Shown: positions 23,248-32,077 of the stretch, in pieces | Numbering within the stretch: the first letter of the stretch is position 1 | Layout of the letters: each line of letters starts with the position of its first letter | Source of the DNA: Micromonospora luteifusca | GTDB lineage: Bacteria; Actinomycetota; Actinomycetes; Mycobacteriales; Micromonosporaceae | Length of the DNA: 64,000 nucleotides | Assembly: GCF_016907275.1 (NCBI RefSeq) | Contig: NZ_JAFBBP010000001.1 | Coordinates: 5,508,001-5,572,000, forward strand | Direction: 5' to 3' | The notes under the pieces: generated by a model | What the model saw: only the letters and a program-made list of their open reading frames with translations | Databases searched by the model: none | Told to the model about the DNA's origin: nothing | Program-made: the position numbers and the translations under genes

Positions 23248-23318
23248 GGTGTCGAGCTTAGGAGCTGGGCACGGGGGCGACCGTGAGGGGGCACCCGACA
23301 TACCCGATCCATGGTGGA

Positions 23319-23344
23319 GATTGGCGAGCCGACCGATTGGGTAC
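23319..23344 (+). promoter_or_regulatory. Candidate sigma-B-type stress promoter
   Basis: GATT (23319-23322), 16 bp, GGGTAC (23339-23344) matches the Streptomyces sigma-B consensus GNNT-N14-16-GGGTAC/T exactly. It lies 43 bp before a 70-codon membrane protein gene. The match is direct; the assignment to a sigma-B/F-type factor in this organism is inference. Confidence 0.5.
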
Positions 23345-23386
23345 ATCACGCGCCGACCTACTGGGAACCCCCACCGGAGGACCGAC

Positions 23387-23599
23387 ATGCTCGCCATTCT
23401 CGCTGCCATCGTCTTTGGCTTCGCCCTGCTGCTCGACCTGCTCAACACAGACTTCGGAGCACCCGACCTGTTCAACTGGAACACTCTCGTGCTCATCGGG
23501 CTGCTCCTGCTCTCGCTCTACCTGGGTGGCGTGGGCAACGGCCCGCGCGGCGGTGGCGGCGGCCGTTGGTACCGGGGTCGGCGCCCCGGGCGTGGCTGA
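23387..23599 (+). CDS. Small two-helix membrane protein (70 aa)
   Basis: The ATG at 23387 follows CCGGAGG with a 6-base spacer. Two hydrophobic helices ([18 protein letters not shown] and [17 protein letters not shown]) are joined by a short acidic loop, and the tail is Gly/Arg-rich ([16 protein letters not shown]). Proteins of this size and layout are common uncharacterised actinobacterial membrane proteins. A sigma-B-like promoter upstream suggests a role under osmotic or general stress. I do not recognise a named family. Confidence 0.7.
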
Positions 23600-23673
23600 C
23601 CGGAACCGATCACCGGTGGCGGGCCCGCGGCGCGATTCCGGCGTCGTGGGTCCGGCCCGGTACTGTCTTCGTG

Positions 23674-25242
23674 ATGGAGTCCGACGCCCTCTTCTCCCTC
23701 GGTGAACCCGCCGGGCCGCGCAGCGCGCCCGACGGTCCCGCCGGTGTCGACGGCTTCACTGCGGTGGCCGACGACTCGCCCCTGCCCGTCCGGATGCGTC
23801 CGGTCACCCTCGACGAGTTGGTCGGGCAGAACCACCTGCTCGCCCCCGGTGCCCCACTGCGGCAGCTGGTCTCCGGCGGCGCCCCGATGTCGGTGATCCT
23901 CTGGGGCCCGCCGGGCAGCGGCAAGACCACCATCGCGCACCTGGTGGCCGGGGCGACCGATCGCCGCTTCGTCGCCATGTCGGCGCTCTCCGCCGGCGTC
24001 AAGGACGTGCGGGCGGTGATCGAGACGGCCCGCCGCCAGCGCCGCTCGGGCGGCCCGCAGACGGTGCTCTTCATCGACGAGGTGCACCGGTTCAGCAAGA
24101 CCCAGCAGGATTCGCTGCTCGCCGCGGTCGAGGACCGTACGGTCACGTTGCTGGCGGCGACCACCGAGAATCCGTACTTCTCGGTCATCTCTCCGCTGCT
24201 GTCGCGATGCGTGCTACTCACCCTGCAACCGCTGGACGACGAGGCGGTGCGGGGCCTGCTGCGCCGCGCGGTCGTCGACAAGCGTGGCCTGGACGGCCTG
24301 CTCGCCCTGACCGCCGAGGCCGAGGACCATCTGGTCCGGCTCGCCGCCGGTGACGTCCGCAAGGCCCTCACCGCGCTGGAGGCGGCGGCGGCCTCCGCCA
24401 CGGCGCTCGGCGGCGGGCAGATCGACCTGGCCACCGCCGAGCAGGCGGTCGACGTGGCGGCGGTGCGCTACGACCGCGACGGCGACGCCCACTACGACGT
24501 GGTCAGCGCGTTCATCAAGAGCATGCGCGGCTCGGACGTGGACGCCGCGGTGCACTGGTTGGCCCGCATGCTGGTCGCCGGTGAGGACGCCCGGTTCATC
24601 GCCCGCCGTCTGGTCATCTTCGCCAGCGAGGACGTGGGCATGGCCGACCCCGGTGCCCTGAGCGTCGCCACCGCCGCCGCGCACGCCGTCGAGTACGTCG
24701 GGCTGCCCGAAGCACAGCTCAACCTGGCCCAAGCGGTGATCCACCTGGCCACCGCGCCCAAATCGAACTCGGCCACCACCGCCATCGGCGCCGCGATCGC
24801 CGACGTCCGGGCGGGTCGCGGTGGCCCGGTGCCGCGTGGGCTGCGCGACGCGCACTACGCCGGTGCCCGAGGGCTGGGCCACGGCACGGGCTACCGCTAC
24901 CCGCACGACGACCAGCGCGGCGTGGTCACCCAGCAGTACGTCCCGGACGACCTGGTGGGCACCGACTACTACCAGCCCAGCCCGCACGGCGCGGAACGTG
25001 CGGTGGCCACCCGGCTGCCGCTGCTGCGCCGGATCGTGCGTGGCCTGCCGGCCGCGGCGGCCCGTCCGGAGACTCCGCCATCCGCGCCGTCGGTAACGGC
25101 GCAGACCGCATCCGAGCCGTCGGTAACGGCGCAGACCGCATCCGCGCCTTCTGACGAGATCGGTCACCCGACGACGGGCGCGGGCGCCCCCGGCACGACG
25201 CAGGACAGCGGCGCTGACGCCGCAGGAGAGGGTCAACAGTGA
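23674..25242 (+). CDS. rarA: Replication-associated recombination protein A (RarA/MgsA AAA ATPase)
   Basis: A 522-residue AAA+ clamp-loader-like ATPase that acts at stalled replication forks. Walker A is GPPGSGKTT (about 79-87), Walker B is [15 protein letters not shown], and sensor 1 is [13 protein letters not shown]; the C-terminal MgsA domain contains [16 protein letters not shown] and SEDVGMADP. The extreme C-terminus is disordered and carries a 10-residue tandem duplication. ATG at 23674 lies 7 bases after a TACTGT -10-like hexamer, so it may be leaderless; GTG at 23671 is the alternative. It overlaps the next gene by 4 bases. Confidence 0.92.
25086..25145 (+). repeat. 30-bp in-frame tandem duplication in the rarA 3' end
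   Basis: Bases 25086-25115 and 25116-25145 are the same 30-bp unit apart from the last position, encoding [13 protein letters not shown] decapeptides in the disordered RarA tail. Its integer codon length keeps the frame. Probably neutral slippage. Confidence 0.85.
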
Positions 25243-28200
25243 GATCGCGTGGTGGGGACCGCCCGGACGAGGGCCCGGACGAGCGGCGCGATCCCCGCGC
25301 CAAGGCGCGCCGCTGGGGTCGAGGGCGGGCAGCCGAGGCTGAGCCGGAGGAGCCGGTCGCCGGCGAGGAGTTCGGCTGGATCGACGATCTTCGGTCGGCC
25401 AAGCAGGAACGCACCGAGCTGGGTCCGGACGGCGCCCCGGCACAGCCCGACCGCCCCCGCGGCGGTACGCCCGCGGAACCCGCCGGGCGCCGTCCGGGTG
25501 CGCCGGCGGAGTCGGCCGGTGCGCGCGGAGGTGGGCCGGTGCCGCCGGAGGCCTCGGCGCCGCCTGCCCCGCGCCCGAGCGACCCGGGCGGTGCCGCCCC
25601 ACGCCGCGGAGTCGACGGCCCGTGGCCGGGGGAGACGCCGCCAGCGGGCCGCCGCCCGGACGACCGGTCACCCGCCGCTGGCCCCGTTGCCCCCAGCCAG
25701 GGCAAGCCGACGCGTCGCGGTGTGCAGCCGGCGGCTGGCGCCCGCGCCGCCGTACCGCCGTCGCCACCCGCCGCCCGCCCGGTCGGCGGCGACCCGGCCA
25801 GCCCGCAGGGGCCTCGCCCGACTCCCGACGCGGCGCCCGGCCCGGCCCGGCCCCGGGCGGCAACGGCTCCCCCCGGCCCACCGGTGGGCCCACCGACCTC
25901 GGACGCCCCGCCCGGCCGTCGGCCGGAGGCTGTCGTTCCGCCCGATCGTCGCCCAGATGCCGGTGTTCCGCCGGGTCGTCGTCCAGACGCTGCGGTTCCA
26001 CCTGGCCGCCGGCCGGATGCGTCGGTGCCGCCGGGTCGTCGTCCGGAGGCCGCGGTTCCACCGGGTCGTCGGCCGGACGCCGCGGTTCCCGGGGGGAATC
26101 CCGACGCGATGCCGCCGCTGCGTCGTCCGGAGGCCGGTGCTCCGGGTCGCCGACCCGGCCCGGAGCCGACCGAGCCCGGTCGGCCACTGCCGCCCACCGA
26201 CGGCACGCCAGGCGGTCGACGCGCCGCCGGACCGGCACCCGATCCGGCGCGGGCCGCCGGGTCAGCTGCCGCCGGCCCGGCCCGCTTCGACGGCGGGTCG
26301 GCGGGCGTCGTGCCGCCAGCCGCGGACGGCCTGCGGCCCGACCCCGCCATCGACCGTGACCCGCGTACCGCGCGGCGTCGCCCAGGCCCGGCCGACCCGG
26401 GGGCACCGGAGCCCACCGGCCGCCGTGGCGCCGAGCGCTCCCGTCCGGCCGCCGCCGGCCGCCGCCGGGCTGCGGAGCCCGACGAGCCCGCGGTTCCCCG
26501 CTCGGGTAACGCGCCGCCGGTGCCCGAGGCCTCCGGCGGTCACAGCGGCGCCACGCCCACCATCGGCCCGGCCGACGGCACCGGTCGCCGCCGGGCCGTC
26601 TCCGATGAGCCGGAGCGACGTACGCCGGCCGGCGGGGAGCCCCGGGTGGACCGTCCGGAGCGGCCCGCCGACTGGCTGCGCCAGGCCGGTCGCCTGCCGC
26701 ACACCGACCCCGGCCTGCCGGTGGTCAACCGCCGAGGCGGCACCCCCCCGGCCGCGGGCACCGGGGACCTCGTTGACCACACGTCCGGTCGCCTCGGCGT
26801 GCCCGACCCGGCCGTGGAGCGCCCCGCCGGCAGCCGGCCCTCCGGCCCGCCGGCTGACCCGGGCGCGGACGCACCGACGGGTCGTCGTGTCGGCCGACCG
26901 GACGCGCCGGCAGCCACCGGCGAACAGGCTCTGCCCTATTCGCCGGCGTCCGGCGAACGCGCCACCCGTGGCCGGGGCGCTGCGGCGCCCGGCTCGGACC
27001 CGACCGGACGGCGCGGTCGTCCGGTGGCCGCGCCCGGCCCGGACGCAACCCCCGTGCCCGACCCGAACGGCCGACGACGTCGCCCGCCGGCCGAGGCGGG
27101 CCCGGACGGCCCGGTCGGCCCAGGTCGGCCCGGCCCCGCGGGCGACCACGGCGACGACGCCTACGCCGGTGGACGACCCGCGCCCGGCGCCGGTCCCGCC
27201 GCACCGGTGCGGGGCGCCGCCCGCTCCGCCCCGCCCGGCCGGGCCCGGCCCGTCCCGGGTGACGCACCGGTGCCCGGCGCCGAGCGCCGTGGCGCCGAAG
27301 GCCCGCCGCCCCGACCCGGCTCGGGTGCCGAGGCGGCCCCCCGGGACGCCGCCCGCCCGGACGGCCCGGCTCGTGCCGCGGTGCCCGGTGTGGATGGTCC
27401 GCCGCGTTCGCGTCCGGACGGTCCGGCTCGTGCCGCCGTCCGCCCACCGGGCGGTGCGCAGCCGCCCCTCGCCGACGATCGGCCACCTGGTGAGCCGGGC
27501 ACCGGTCCCGGGTCCCCGGCACCGGCCCGTGGCGGTGCCGCGGTCGGTCGGCCCGCGCCGTCCGACCGTGCCGCGGGGCGTGCCCTGCCTCCGCACCGCG
27601 AGCCCGGCCGTCCCGAGCCGAGTGGCGTTGCCCCGGTGCCACCGCCCGCCCGCCCCGGCGAGCCGGTCGCTGTGGCCCGTGCTGCCGCAGTGGTGCCGTC
27701 ACCCGCCGGGCCGCCGGACCGTCCGGCCCCGGAGCCGTCCGGCGGGACCGCGTTGCGCTCGGCCGGTCCGGACACGCCCGACGACGCCGCACCCGCACCG
27801 GAGGCCCGATCGGAGTTGCGCCGGCAGTCGCGTGAACGGCGTCGCCTGCGTGCGGCGGTGCTGGTGCTGGTCAGCGTCGTGCTGCTCGGTGCGGTGCCGC
27901 TGTTCTTCGGCATCCGGACGCTGAGCCGTGACCCGGTCTTCGACAACCTGGACCAGCTCAACGTGCCCGGCTGGGCCGCCGCGAAGACGGTCGACGATGT
28001 CAGCGGAAGCCGCTGGTGCCTGCTCGACTGCCGGCTGCGTGAACGCACCGTGACCTCGGAGAAGCCGCCGACGGACACGGCGCAGGTCTACGAGGACGCA
28101 CTGCGCCAGGACGGCTGGCAGCCGTGGAAGGTGAGCCGCTGCCCGGAGCAGAAGACGAAGGGCAGTTACACCTGCTGGCGCCGCGACGAGTTGACCCTCG

Positions 28201-28451
28201 ACCTGTGGGTACGCGAGCCGACCTGCGTACCGCCGCCGGTCGACGGTGAGCCGGCCGTCGTGCCGTCTCCGGACCCGTCGGCCGCTGCGACGGAGTGCAC
28301 CGGCTCGTTGGTGTCGGTGAAGGTACGCAACGCGATCGACGACGAGAGGACCAGACCGCAGCCGTCCACCGACCCGTCACTGACCGGAGAGGATCCGTTC
28401 CCGACGGTCAGCGGGGATCCGCTGGGGGAGCTGACACCCTCACCGTCGTGA
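25239..28451 (+). CDS. 1070-residue Pro/Arg/Ala-rich disordered protein with C-terminal membrane anchor and Cys-containing outer domain
   Basis: I do not recognise a named family. Roughly residues 1-865 are low-complexity, dominated by Pro, Ala, Gly, Arg and Asp, with no signal peptide. A run of near-identical 10-residue units (type [10 protein letters not shown]) covers about 224-290. One transmembrane helix follows at about 868-888 ([22 protein letters not shown]), then an extracytoplasmic domain of about 180 residues with six Cys (WCLLDC, SRCPE, YTCWRR, PTCVP, ECTGS) that could form three disulfides. The topology is N-in/C-out. GTG at 25239 overlaps the rarA stop (GTGA), so it is co-translated. 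Codon third positions are strongly GC in this frame, which supports it over other long open frames here. Confidence 0.75.
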
Positions 28452-28600: not shown

Positions 28601-29065
28601 GTGGGCGACATTGGAGCGATCGCGGCGCTGGTCGCGGCGTGCGCGTTCGCGGTGCTGGTGCTCATCCTGACGTTGCCCATCCTGCGGCTGCGGCACACGG
28701 TTGACGCCACCACCCGGATGATCAACGACCTCAACGATCGGACGGGGCCCCTGCTCGGTGACGTGAACACCACGGTGAAGAACGTCAACACCGCGCTGGA
28801 GCAGGTGCAGACCTCGCTCGACGGCGTGAACCTCCAGCTGGCGAAGGTCGACACCATGACCAGCCACGCGCAGAACGTCACCGCCAACGTCGCCAACCTC
28901 GCCACCGTCGTCTCCGCAGCGGCCGCCAACCCGCTGGTCAAGGTGGCCGCTTTCGGTTACGGCGTGCGCAAGGCCGCCGCCGGCCGTCGGCACGCCGAGA
29001 CCGAGCGCGAGGTGCGCGACACCATCAAGCAGCAGCGACGGGCCGCACGGCGCGGCAACAGCTGA
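28601..29065 (+). CDS. DUF948 single-pass membrane protein
   Basis: A 154-residue protein with an N-terminal helix at about 6-28 (ALVAACAFAVLVLILTLPIL), a coiled-coil-like helical middle (TRMINDLNDRTGPLLGDVNTTVKNVNTALEQ region) typical of DUF948, and a basic C-terminus (IKQQRRAARRG). The function is unknown; DUF948 genes often lie before alaS in actinobacteria. GTG at 28601 follows GAGGAGGACA. It is 31 bp from the next gene, in one operon. Confidence 0.85.
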   Translation: MGDIGAIAALVAACAFAVLVLILTLPILRLRHTVDATTRMINDLNDRTGPLLGDVNTTVKNVNTALEQVQTSLDGVNLQLAKVDTMTSHAQNVTANVANLATVVSAAAANPLVKVAAFGYGVRKAAAGRRHAETEREVRDTIKQQRRAARRGNS

Positions 29066-29096: not shown

Positions 29097-29402
29097 ATGA
29101 GGCGTCTGTTCTGGCTCGGTATCGGGGTGGCCGTCGGTGTGGTCGTGGTCCGCAAGGCGACCCGGACCGCCCAGGCGTACACGCCGGCCGGCATCGCCAG
29201 CACGGTGACACAATCCGCTGGCGGGCTCGTCGAGTCGTTGCGTAGCTTCGTGGAGGACATCCGGGTAGGGATGGCCGAGCGCGAGCAGGAGATCCACCAG
29301 GCGTTCGCCCAGGGCGTGGCGTTCGACGATCAGTTCGCCGACCTGCGGGAAGACCCGCGGATCGGCGATCGAGACATATTTCCGGAGGAACACCAGCGAT
29401 GA
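29097..29402 (+). CDS. Small membrane protein upstream of alaS (DUF6167-like)
   Basis: A 101-residue protein. The N-terminal helix [19 protein letters not shown] is followed by an amphipathic, acidic region ([23 protein letters not shown]). It follows DUF948 in conserved order and overlaps alaS by four bases (ATGA), so alaS translation is probably coupled to it. ATG at 29097 follows AGGAGG. The family name is my best recollection; the function is unknown. Confidence 0.8.
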
Positions 29403-32077
29403 AGACGGCGGAGATCAAGCGGCGGTATCTCGCCCATTTCGAGGCGAATGGCCACGCTGTGGTGCCGTCCGCTCCGCTGCCCGCCATCAGCGACCCGAAC
29501 CTGCTGTTCGTCAACGCCGGCATGGTGCAGTTCGTTCCGTACTTCCTGGGTCAGCAGACTGCCCCGTACCAGCGGGCGGTCAGCGTGCAGAAGTGCATCC
29601 GCACCCCGGACATCGACGAGGTCGGCAAGACCAGCCGGCACGGCACGTTCTTCCAGATGAACGGCAACTTCTCCTTCGGCGACTACTTCAAGGCCGGCGC
29701 GATCCCGCTCGCGTGGGAGTTGTCCACGAAGCCGATCGCCGAGGGTGGTTACGGTCTGGATCCGGAGCGGATCTGGCCGACGGTCTACCTCGACGACGAC
29801 GAGGCGTACGAGATCTGGCGGTCGGTGGGCGTGCCGGCCGAGCGGATCGTCCGCCGGGGTAAGGCGGACAACTTCTGGTCGATGGGCATTCCCGGGCCGT
29901 GCGGCCCGTCGTCGGAGCTGTTCTACGACCGCGGCCCGGAGTACGGCCGCGAGGGCGGCCCGGCGGTCGACGAGGACCGGTACATGGAGTACTGGAACCT
30001 CGTCTTCATGCAGTTCGAGCGCGGTCCGGGCACGACCAAGGAGGACTACCCGATCCTGGGTGACCTGCCGGCGAAGAACATCGACACCGGCATGGGCCTG
30101 GAACGGATGGCCTCGATCCTGCAGGGTGTCGACAACCTCTACGAGATCGATGAGGTGCGGCCGATCCTGGCGCGGGCGGCCGAGCTGACCGGCAAGCGCT
30201 ACGGCGCGCACTCCGGCCACGTGGCGAGTGAGTCGCACCCGGACGACGTGCGGCTGCGGGTGATCGCGGATCACGTGCGGACGGCGCTGATGCTGATCGG
30301 CGACGGTGTGACCCCGTCCAACGAGGGTCGCGGTTACGTGCTGCGGCGGATCATGCGTAGGGCGATCCGGTCGATCCGGCTGCTCGGCTGGCAGGACCGG
30401 GCGCTGCCCGAGCTGCTGCCGGTGGCCCGGGACTGCATGGCCCCGTCGTATCCGGAGCTGGCGACCGACTTCGACCGGATCGCGGATTACGCGTACGCGG
30501 AGGAGGAGGCGTTCCTGTCCACCCTGCGTGCGGGGACCACGATCCTGGACACCGCGATCGCCGAGACCCGTACCGCGGGTGGTTCCGCGTTGTCCGGGGC
30601 GAAGGCGTTTCAGCTGCACGACACGTACGGCTTCCCGATCGACCTGACCCTGGAGATCGCCGCGGAGCAGGGTCTCGCGGTCGACGACGAGGGTTTCCGG
30701 CGGCTGATGGCCGACCAGCGGACCCGGGCGAAGGCGGACGCGCAGGCCCGTAAGACGGGGCATGTCGACCTGTCGTCGTACCGGTCGGTGCTCGACTCGG
30801 GTGGTCCGGTGACGTTCACCGGTTACAGCGAGGTGGCCCGCGAGTCGACGGTGCGGGCGCTGCTCGGCGCCGACGGCCCGCGCCAGGCGGCGACCGAGGG
30901 CGACACCATCGAGTTGGTCCTCGACACGACCCCGTTCTACGCCGAGGGCGGTGGCCAGCAGCCCGACCAGGGCATGATCACCGTTGGTGGCGGGCAGGTC
31001 GAGGTGCTCGACGTGCAGCAGCCGGTGCCCGGTCTGATCGTGCACCGGGCCCGGGTGATCCGGGGCGAGGTGCGCGCCGGTGAGACGGGGTACGCCGAGA
31101 TCGACACGACTCGGCGGCGGGCGATCTCCCGGTCGCACACGGCCACCCACCTGGTGCACCAGACCATGCGGAACTTCCTCGGTGAGTCGGCCACGCAGGC
31201 GGGTTCGCTGAACGCGCCTGGCCGGCTCCGGTTCGACTTCAACACCCCGACCGGTGTGTCGCCAACCGTCCTGCGGGATGTGGAGCAGCAGGTCAACGAG
31301 GTGCTCCTGGCCGACCTGGAGGTGCACGCCTTCATCACCTCGCTGGACGAGGCGCGGCGGATCGGGGCGATGGCGCTCTTCGGTGAGAAGTACGGCGAGG
31401 AGGTGCGGGTCGTCGAGGTGGGTGACTACGCCCGGGAGTTGTGCGGCGGCACGCACGTGGCCCGGTCGGCCCAGCTCGGCCTCGTGAAGATCCTCTCGGA
31501 GTCGTCGATCGGGTCCGGCGTCCGCCGGGTCGAGGCGCTGGTCGGCATGGATGCCTTCGGCTTCCTGGCCCGTGAGCACCTGCTGGTCTCCCGGCTGGCC
31601 GAGTTGTACCGGGTGCCCAACGATCAGGTCGCCGACCGGGTGGAGCAGACCGTCACCCAGCTCCGGGACGCGGAGAAGGAGTTGGAGAAGCTGCGCGCCC
31701 AGCTGGTGCTGGGTGGCGCGGCGGCGCTCGCGGCGCAGGCCAAGGACGTACGCGGGGTCGCGTACGTGGGCACCGAGGCGCCGGAGGGCGCGGCCGGCAA
31801 CGACGTGCGGACGCTGGCCCAGGAGATTCGCGGCAAGATCGACCCGGCTCGGCCGGCGGTGGTCGCGGTGGCGGCCCGGTCGAACGGCAAGGCGTCCCTG
31901 GTGGTGGCGGTCAATGCGGCGGCGCGCGGTCAGGGCCTGGCCGCCTCGGATCTGGTGAAGGCGGCGTTCTCCGGGCGTGGTGGTGGCAGCCCCGACCTGG
32001 CCCAGGGTGGCGGCCTGCCCGCGGCCGAGGCACCGAACCTGCTGCTCACCGTCGAGAAGGCGATCACCGAGGCGTGA
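29399..32077 (+). CDS. alaS: Alanyl-tRNA synthetase
   Basis: An 892-residue class II synthetase with editing activity. The N-terminal catalytic domain shows [15 protein letters not shown] and [33 protein letters not shown] is motif 3. The editing domain carries HTATH (about 580-584) and CGGTH (about 682-686), the zinc-binding set that hydrolyses Ser-tRNA-Ala and Gly-tRNA-Ala. The C-terminal C-Ala domain (about 750-892) mediates tRNA binding. ATG at 29399 overlaps the upstream small gene. Confidence 0.97.

Follow-up and report, generated by a model that had tools for sequence, protein, structure and literature searches.

The closest described counterparts of the protein analysed here resemble it either in the probable fold of its outer domain or in its layout. 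LppA and MTC28, which we take to belong to the Mog1/PsbP/DcrB-like group, rank with DcrB and the N-terminal domain of PA1624 among the proteins whose structures match the outer domain best. In one published account, DcrB is a membrane-anchored periplasmic protein of the Mog1p/PsbP-like family, while the N-terminal domain of PA1624 is distantly Mog1p/PsbP-like (PMC7716261). Unlike the members of this group, the present protein has six cysteines and a giant cytoplasmic tail, and it has no sequence match in Pfam or the PDB. The likeness to GlpR of Corynebacterium glutamicum is one of layout. GlpR, a membrane protein of an actinobacterium, carries disordered regions in the cytoplasm and binds the scaffold proteins Glp and Wag31, so that a scaffold-type role of this kind exists in the phylum (PMC10522489). 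It differs in that it has three membrane helices and its two disordered regions bear opposite charges, and no such outer domain is mentioned in the text consulted; the present protein has one strongly hydrophobic helix.

The gene and its outer domain

The window is a stretch of 64,000 nucleotides from the soil bacterium Micromonospora luteifusca, whose genome is a single contig of 7.16 Mb; the top-ranked named relatives are Micromonospora species, for example M. inaquosa, M. lupini and M. chokoriensis. All features described lie on the forward strand. The open reading frame 25239..28451 is one gene, with a GTG start and a 4-nt overlap with the end of rarA, and encodes 1070 residues arranged as an N-terminal motif, a tail of about 800 residues, one membrane helix and a six-cysteine C-terminal domain. 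This anatomy is firm. The giant low-complexity tail, the single helix and the six-cysteine domain beyond it had all been described in an earlier note on this DNA and are plainly seen in the sequence of the frame; the motif and the islands within the tail were absent from that description.

The N-terminal module (25239..25433, residues 1-65), of which no second copy is found in the same genome (next best match E 0.209), contains a motif of 13 residues (25365..25403, residues 43-55). For the motif and the tail, comparison across genomes is based on 68 forms, obtained by seeking a single reading frame with both motifs in 141 loci, which gave 75, and removing seven second copies of a genome. The motif residues G, W, the second D, L, R and A are kept in all 68, a conservation that is partly built in because the rows were picked with the motif pattern; the motif region was also recovered independently by tblastn with the N-terminus of the window protein.

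The tail (25434..27833, residues 66-865) leads to the membrane helix (27858..27914, residues 874-892), the one strongly hydrophobic helix of the protein. The 20 residues preceding it carry a median net charge of +6 across the 68 forms (range -1 to +8), while the stretch following it has a median of -1 (range -4 to 0). Since a basic stretch precedes the helix and lipoprotein forms of the protein exist, the C-terminal domain is placed outside the cell; the protein would then be single-pass, with its tail inside. The outer domain occupies 27933..28331 (about residues 899-1031), and its six cysteines, at 927, 931, 968, 979, 996 and 1020, all lie C-terminal of the helix. No Pfam or NCBIfam model matches the window protein at a cut-off of E 0.001.

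By the earlier note, a C-terminal domain lacking conservation among relatives would have spoken against its reading. The domain is conserved, being found in all 37 same-genus genomes, the source genome included, among 61 genomes searched, and in 137 of 150 genomes of the family, with its cysteine columns kept. An order-wide search, with 12 candidates scored per genome, gave matches in 42 of 249 genomes, all 42 of them Micromonosporaceae. Exactly six cysteines follow the helix in 58 of 60 fetched loci, the exceptions being L104 with five and L093 with ten. The L093 gene (9182-10030) is a short form, and the end of its reading frame may be misjudged. Five of the cysteine columns are invariant and the other nearly so among 51 aligned sequences (alignment A1, 51 of 61 sequences; alignment A3 holds 40).

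AlphaFold2 models of the outer domain resemble Mog1/PsbP/DcrB-like proteins with middling scores, and on these models the fold is probably of that kind. When the 51 members were searched against Pfam, the top hit was an unrelated family at E 0.034, and no sequence relative was found in the PDB. A search of plasmids gave no match. Two further hits were set aside: one outside the family (G055, E 2.9e-4), whose frame reads by eye as arsenate-reductase-type and which disappeared when a profile was used, and one (G131, E 0.059) on a different contig from the rarA of its genome, which was taken as chance. The domain is probably held by disulfides. A bond between the third and fourth cysteines is likely, because no other cysteines of the six survive in the lipoprotein forms; the remaining pairings are guesses.

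Composition and coding status of the tail

Residues 1-865 consist of 23.0% Pro, 17.8% Ala, 15.1% Gly and 14.3% Arg, with 124 Arg, 3 Lys, 102 Asp plus Glu and no Cys. The decapeptides of the PPGRRPDA type reported in the earlier note are real, six following one another in register at a spacing of 10 residues (224 to 274) and another at 292, and Tandem Repeats Finder gives a 30-nt unit with 6.1 copies at 25908..26089. The array is a local expansion, however, as PPGRRP[DE] is found in only 2 of the 68 tails. Other short elements recur. The window protein has one island of 15 residues (26484..26528, residues 416-430), which belongs to the [SGT]GNA[PR] pattern, and one of 23 (26643..26711, residues 469-491), which belongs to ADW[LI]R. 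The pattern [SGT]GNA[PR] is present in 57 of the 68 tails, against 0.75 expected from shuffles, and spans many genera; ADW[LI]R occurs in 41 against 0.0 expected, mostly in Micromonospora and Salinispora, and G[PA]WPG in 38 against 0.75, mostly in Micromonospora and its near kin.

Since long open frames are cheap in GC-rich DNA, the coding status of the tail was tested. Among 61 loci, 15 of which have no motif match, the motif and the C-terminal domain share one stop-free frame in 41 of the 46 that hold both (p 5e-15 against an expectation of 1/3, although the loci are related). In L067, L074, L080, L109 and L110 the two are out of frame with each other and the frame of the domain is interrupted by stops; sequencing errors may account for these cases, or the genes may be broken. 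A second set of 80 named loci, which overlaps the first in part, gave the same frame in 40 of 41 testable cases and a different one in the other; 34 contigs were too short, one longer contig had no motif and four loci had no match to the domain pattern. When eight loci from six genomes were each compared with the window sequence, 139 of 141 gaps in the tail were multiples of three, and substitutions at codon positions 1, 2 and 3 numbered 801, 638 and 1963. A ninth locus named for this test, L124, has no single open reading frame and contains undetermined bases in the stretch. The shared frame, the multiple-of-three gaps and the recurrent short islands show that the tail is coding.

A coding tail may still be largely neutral filler, a linker lengthened by repeat growth in a very GC-rich genome, with only the motif and the outer domain of importance. 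The range of tail lengths, from 459 to 1646 residues in the 68 forms, the rarity of the decapeptide array and the existence of tail-free forms all fit this reading. On the other hand, every one of the 68 tails is free of Cys, contains at most 0.8% Lys and has a positive net charge (+4 to +52), [SGT]GNA[PR] and ADW[LI]R recur as described, and substitutions are fewer at the first two codon positions than at the third. GC3 is 0.80 in the tail and 0.92 in alaS, which plain GC drive would not give. Filler is a somewhat unlikely account of the tail.

Variants and neighbourhood

The block in which the gene lies consists of rarA (23311..25242; MgsA_C, AAA_assoc_2 and AAA), a DUF948 gene (28601..29065; PF06103) and alaS (29399..32077; Pfam and NCBIfam models). 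The overlap of the start with rarA and the place before DUF948 and alaS, both pointed out earlier, are borne out. In 55 of 61 loci a start codon lies across the rarA stop or directly next to it, and in 53 it opens this gene; in L075 and L083 a different frame of 157 residues overlaps the rarA stop ahead of the tailed gene. The C-terminus of RarA itself is a Pro/Ser/Thr-rich extension (25080-25240) with a short repeat (19 residues).

Several natural variants occupy the same place as the tailed gene. Six loci (L092, L094, L095, L096, L097 and L106) have tail-free forms of 175-197 residues that lack the motif, and two sister genomes (L227 and L228) have lipoprotein forms of 131 or 132 residues, in which the third and fourth cysteines are kept. 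Thirteen genomes of the family have no clear match to the outer domain. In nine of these rarA is followed by DUF948, with the gene missing between them; the remainder are the two genomes with lipoprotein forms, one in which the contig ends after the motif (L236) and one without a rarA match. On an alaS tree, built by a quick method with a midpoint root and 68 rows (L094 and L100 left out), three changes are needed to account for the nine absences, and well supported branches force two of these or more. The tree does not settle the ancestral state of the tail, as the long form L086 falls among the short-form side.

The earlier note had suggested that the protein could form condensates or bind nucleic acid at the membrane, possibly coupling fork rescue by RarA to the envelope. 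The start at the rarA stop in most loci agrees with this proposal, as do the positive charge of all 68 tails, which is compatible with condensate formation or nucleic-acid binding and shows neither, and the excess of Arg beside Arg (31.6% against 22.3% in shuffles). Presence and absence do not go together, however: rarA is kept beside DUF948 in the nine genomes without the gene, and the forms without a tail stand at the same place. Among twelve genomes of other families, none of which has the outer domain at this site, six have rarA and DUF948 as immediate neighbours, no more than 200 bases apart. The gene appears to have entered an older rarA-DUF948-alaS block, and its place beside rarA therefore says little about its function. 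The link to replication-fork rescue is not supported by these genomes and is very unlikely.

Public entries carry the names 'hypothetical' or 'integrin beta 3' among the 120 listed of 286 matches, with lengths limited by the search. It is extremely unlikely that the tail is untranslated and that only a short C-terminal protein, as in these entries, is made. In favour of this reading, the listed entries (120 of 286, listable lengths 0.55 to 1.75 times the query) have about 200-330 residues, the N-terminal 75 residues matched only four long proteins, one marked partial, and start codons stand just ahead of the helix, at two columns, in 33 of 68 forms. Against it, the frame sharing, gap lengths and codon-position pattern speak for translation, long and short forms alike begin at the rarA stop, the best internal start column (38 of 68) lies inside the helix and the listed lengths scatter. 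The lower GC3 of the tail relative to alaS may be the reason why gene finders shorten the gene. In 32 of the 80 named loci (L123-L202; four without a pattern match) no more than 1.7 kb of contig precedes the cysteine pattern of the domain, and assemblies thus tend to break inside the tail.

Proposed role

The reading favoured here, though tentatively, is that the protein is an envelope adaptor in which the outer domain is the functional core and the tail an accessory, the cationic tail tethering or scaffolding from inside. The outer domain is taken as the core because it is present in every form seen, and its most likely action would be to bind an envelope partner. The tail is dispensable in some forms yet constrained in charge, absence of Cys and islands, as would be expected of a flexible tether, or of a scaffold, that carries short sites for recognition. 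Together with the motif and the islands, the cationic tail would most likely act in the cytoplasm and gather the protein at an intracellular site through binding to nucleic acid, to membrane lipid or to proteins of acidic character. A bolder form of the adaptor reading, which we regard as distinctly unlikely, is that of a lineage-specific transmembrane scaffold whose nearly Lys-free, Cys-free Arg/Pro tail of 460-1650 residues, with its short recognition islands, gathers a structure of the cytoplasm, be it the nucleoid, the septum or the growth zone, and couples it to a binder or sensor outside the cell that is rich in disulfides.

To our knowledge, no bacterial system of such a layout has been described. 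A limited literature search, in which a missing paper is not proof of absence from print, found none on Micromonosporaceae with an intrinsically disordered membrane protein, on RarA with DUF948, on 'integrin beta 3' with Micromonospora or on LpqN with Mog1 and lipoprotein. The Micromonosporaceae are known for their antibiotic producers. In this family a conserved protein often appears truncated in public gene lists, and its largest part has therefore been hard to find by search. The natural tail-free and lipoprotein forms offer a direct comparison by which the contribution of a giant disordered tail to a membrane protein can be judged.
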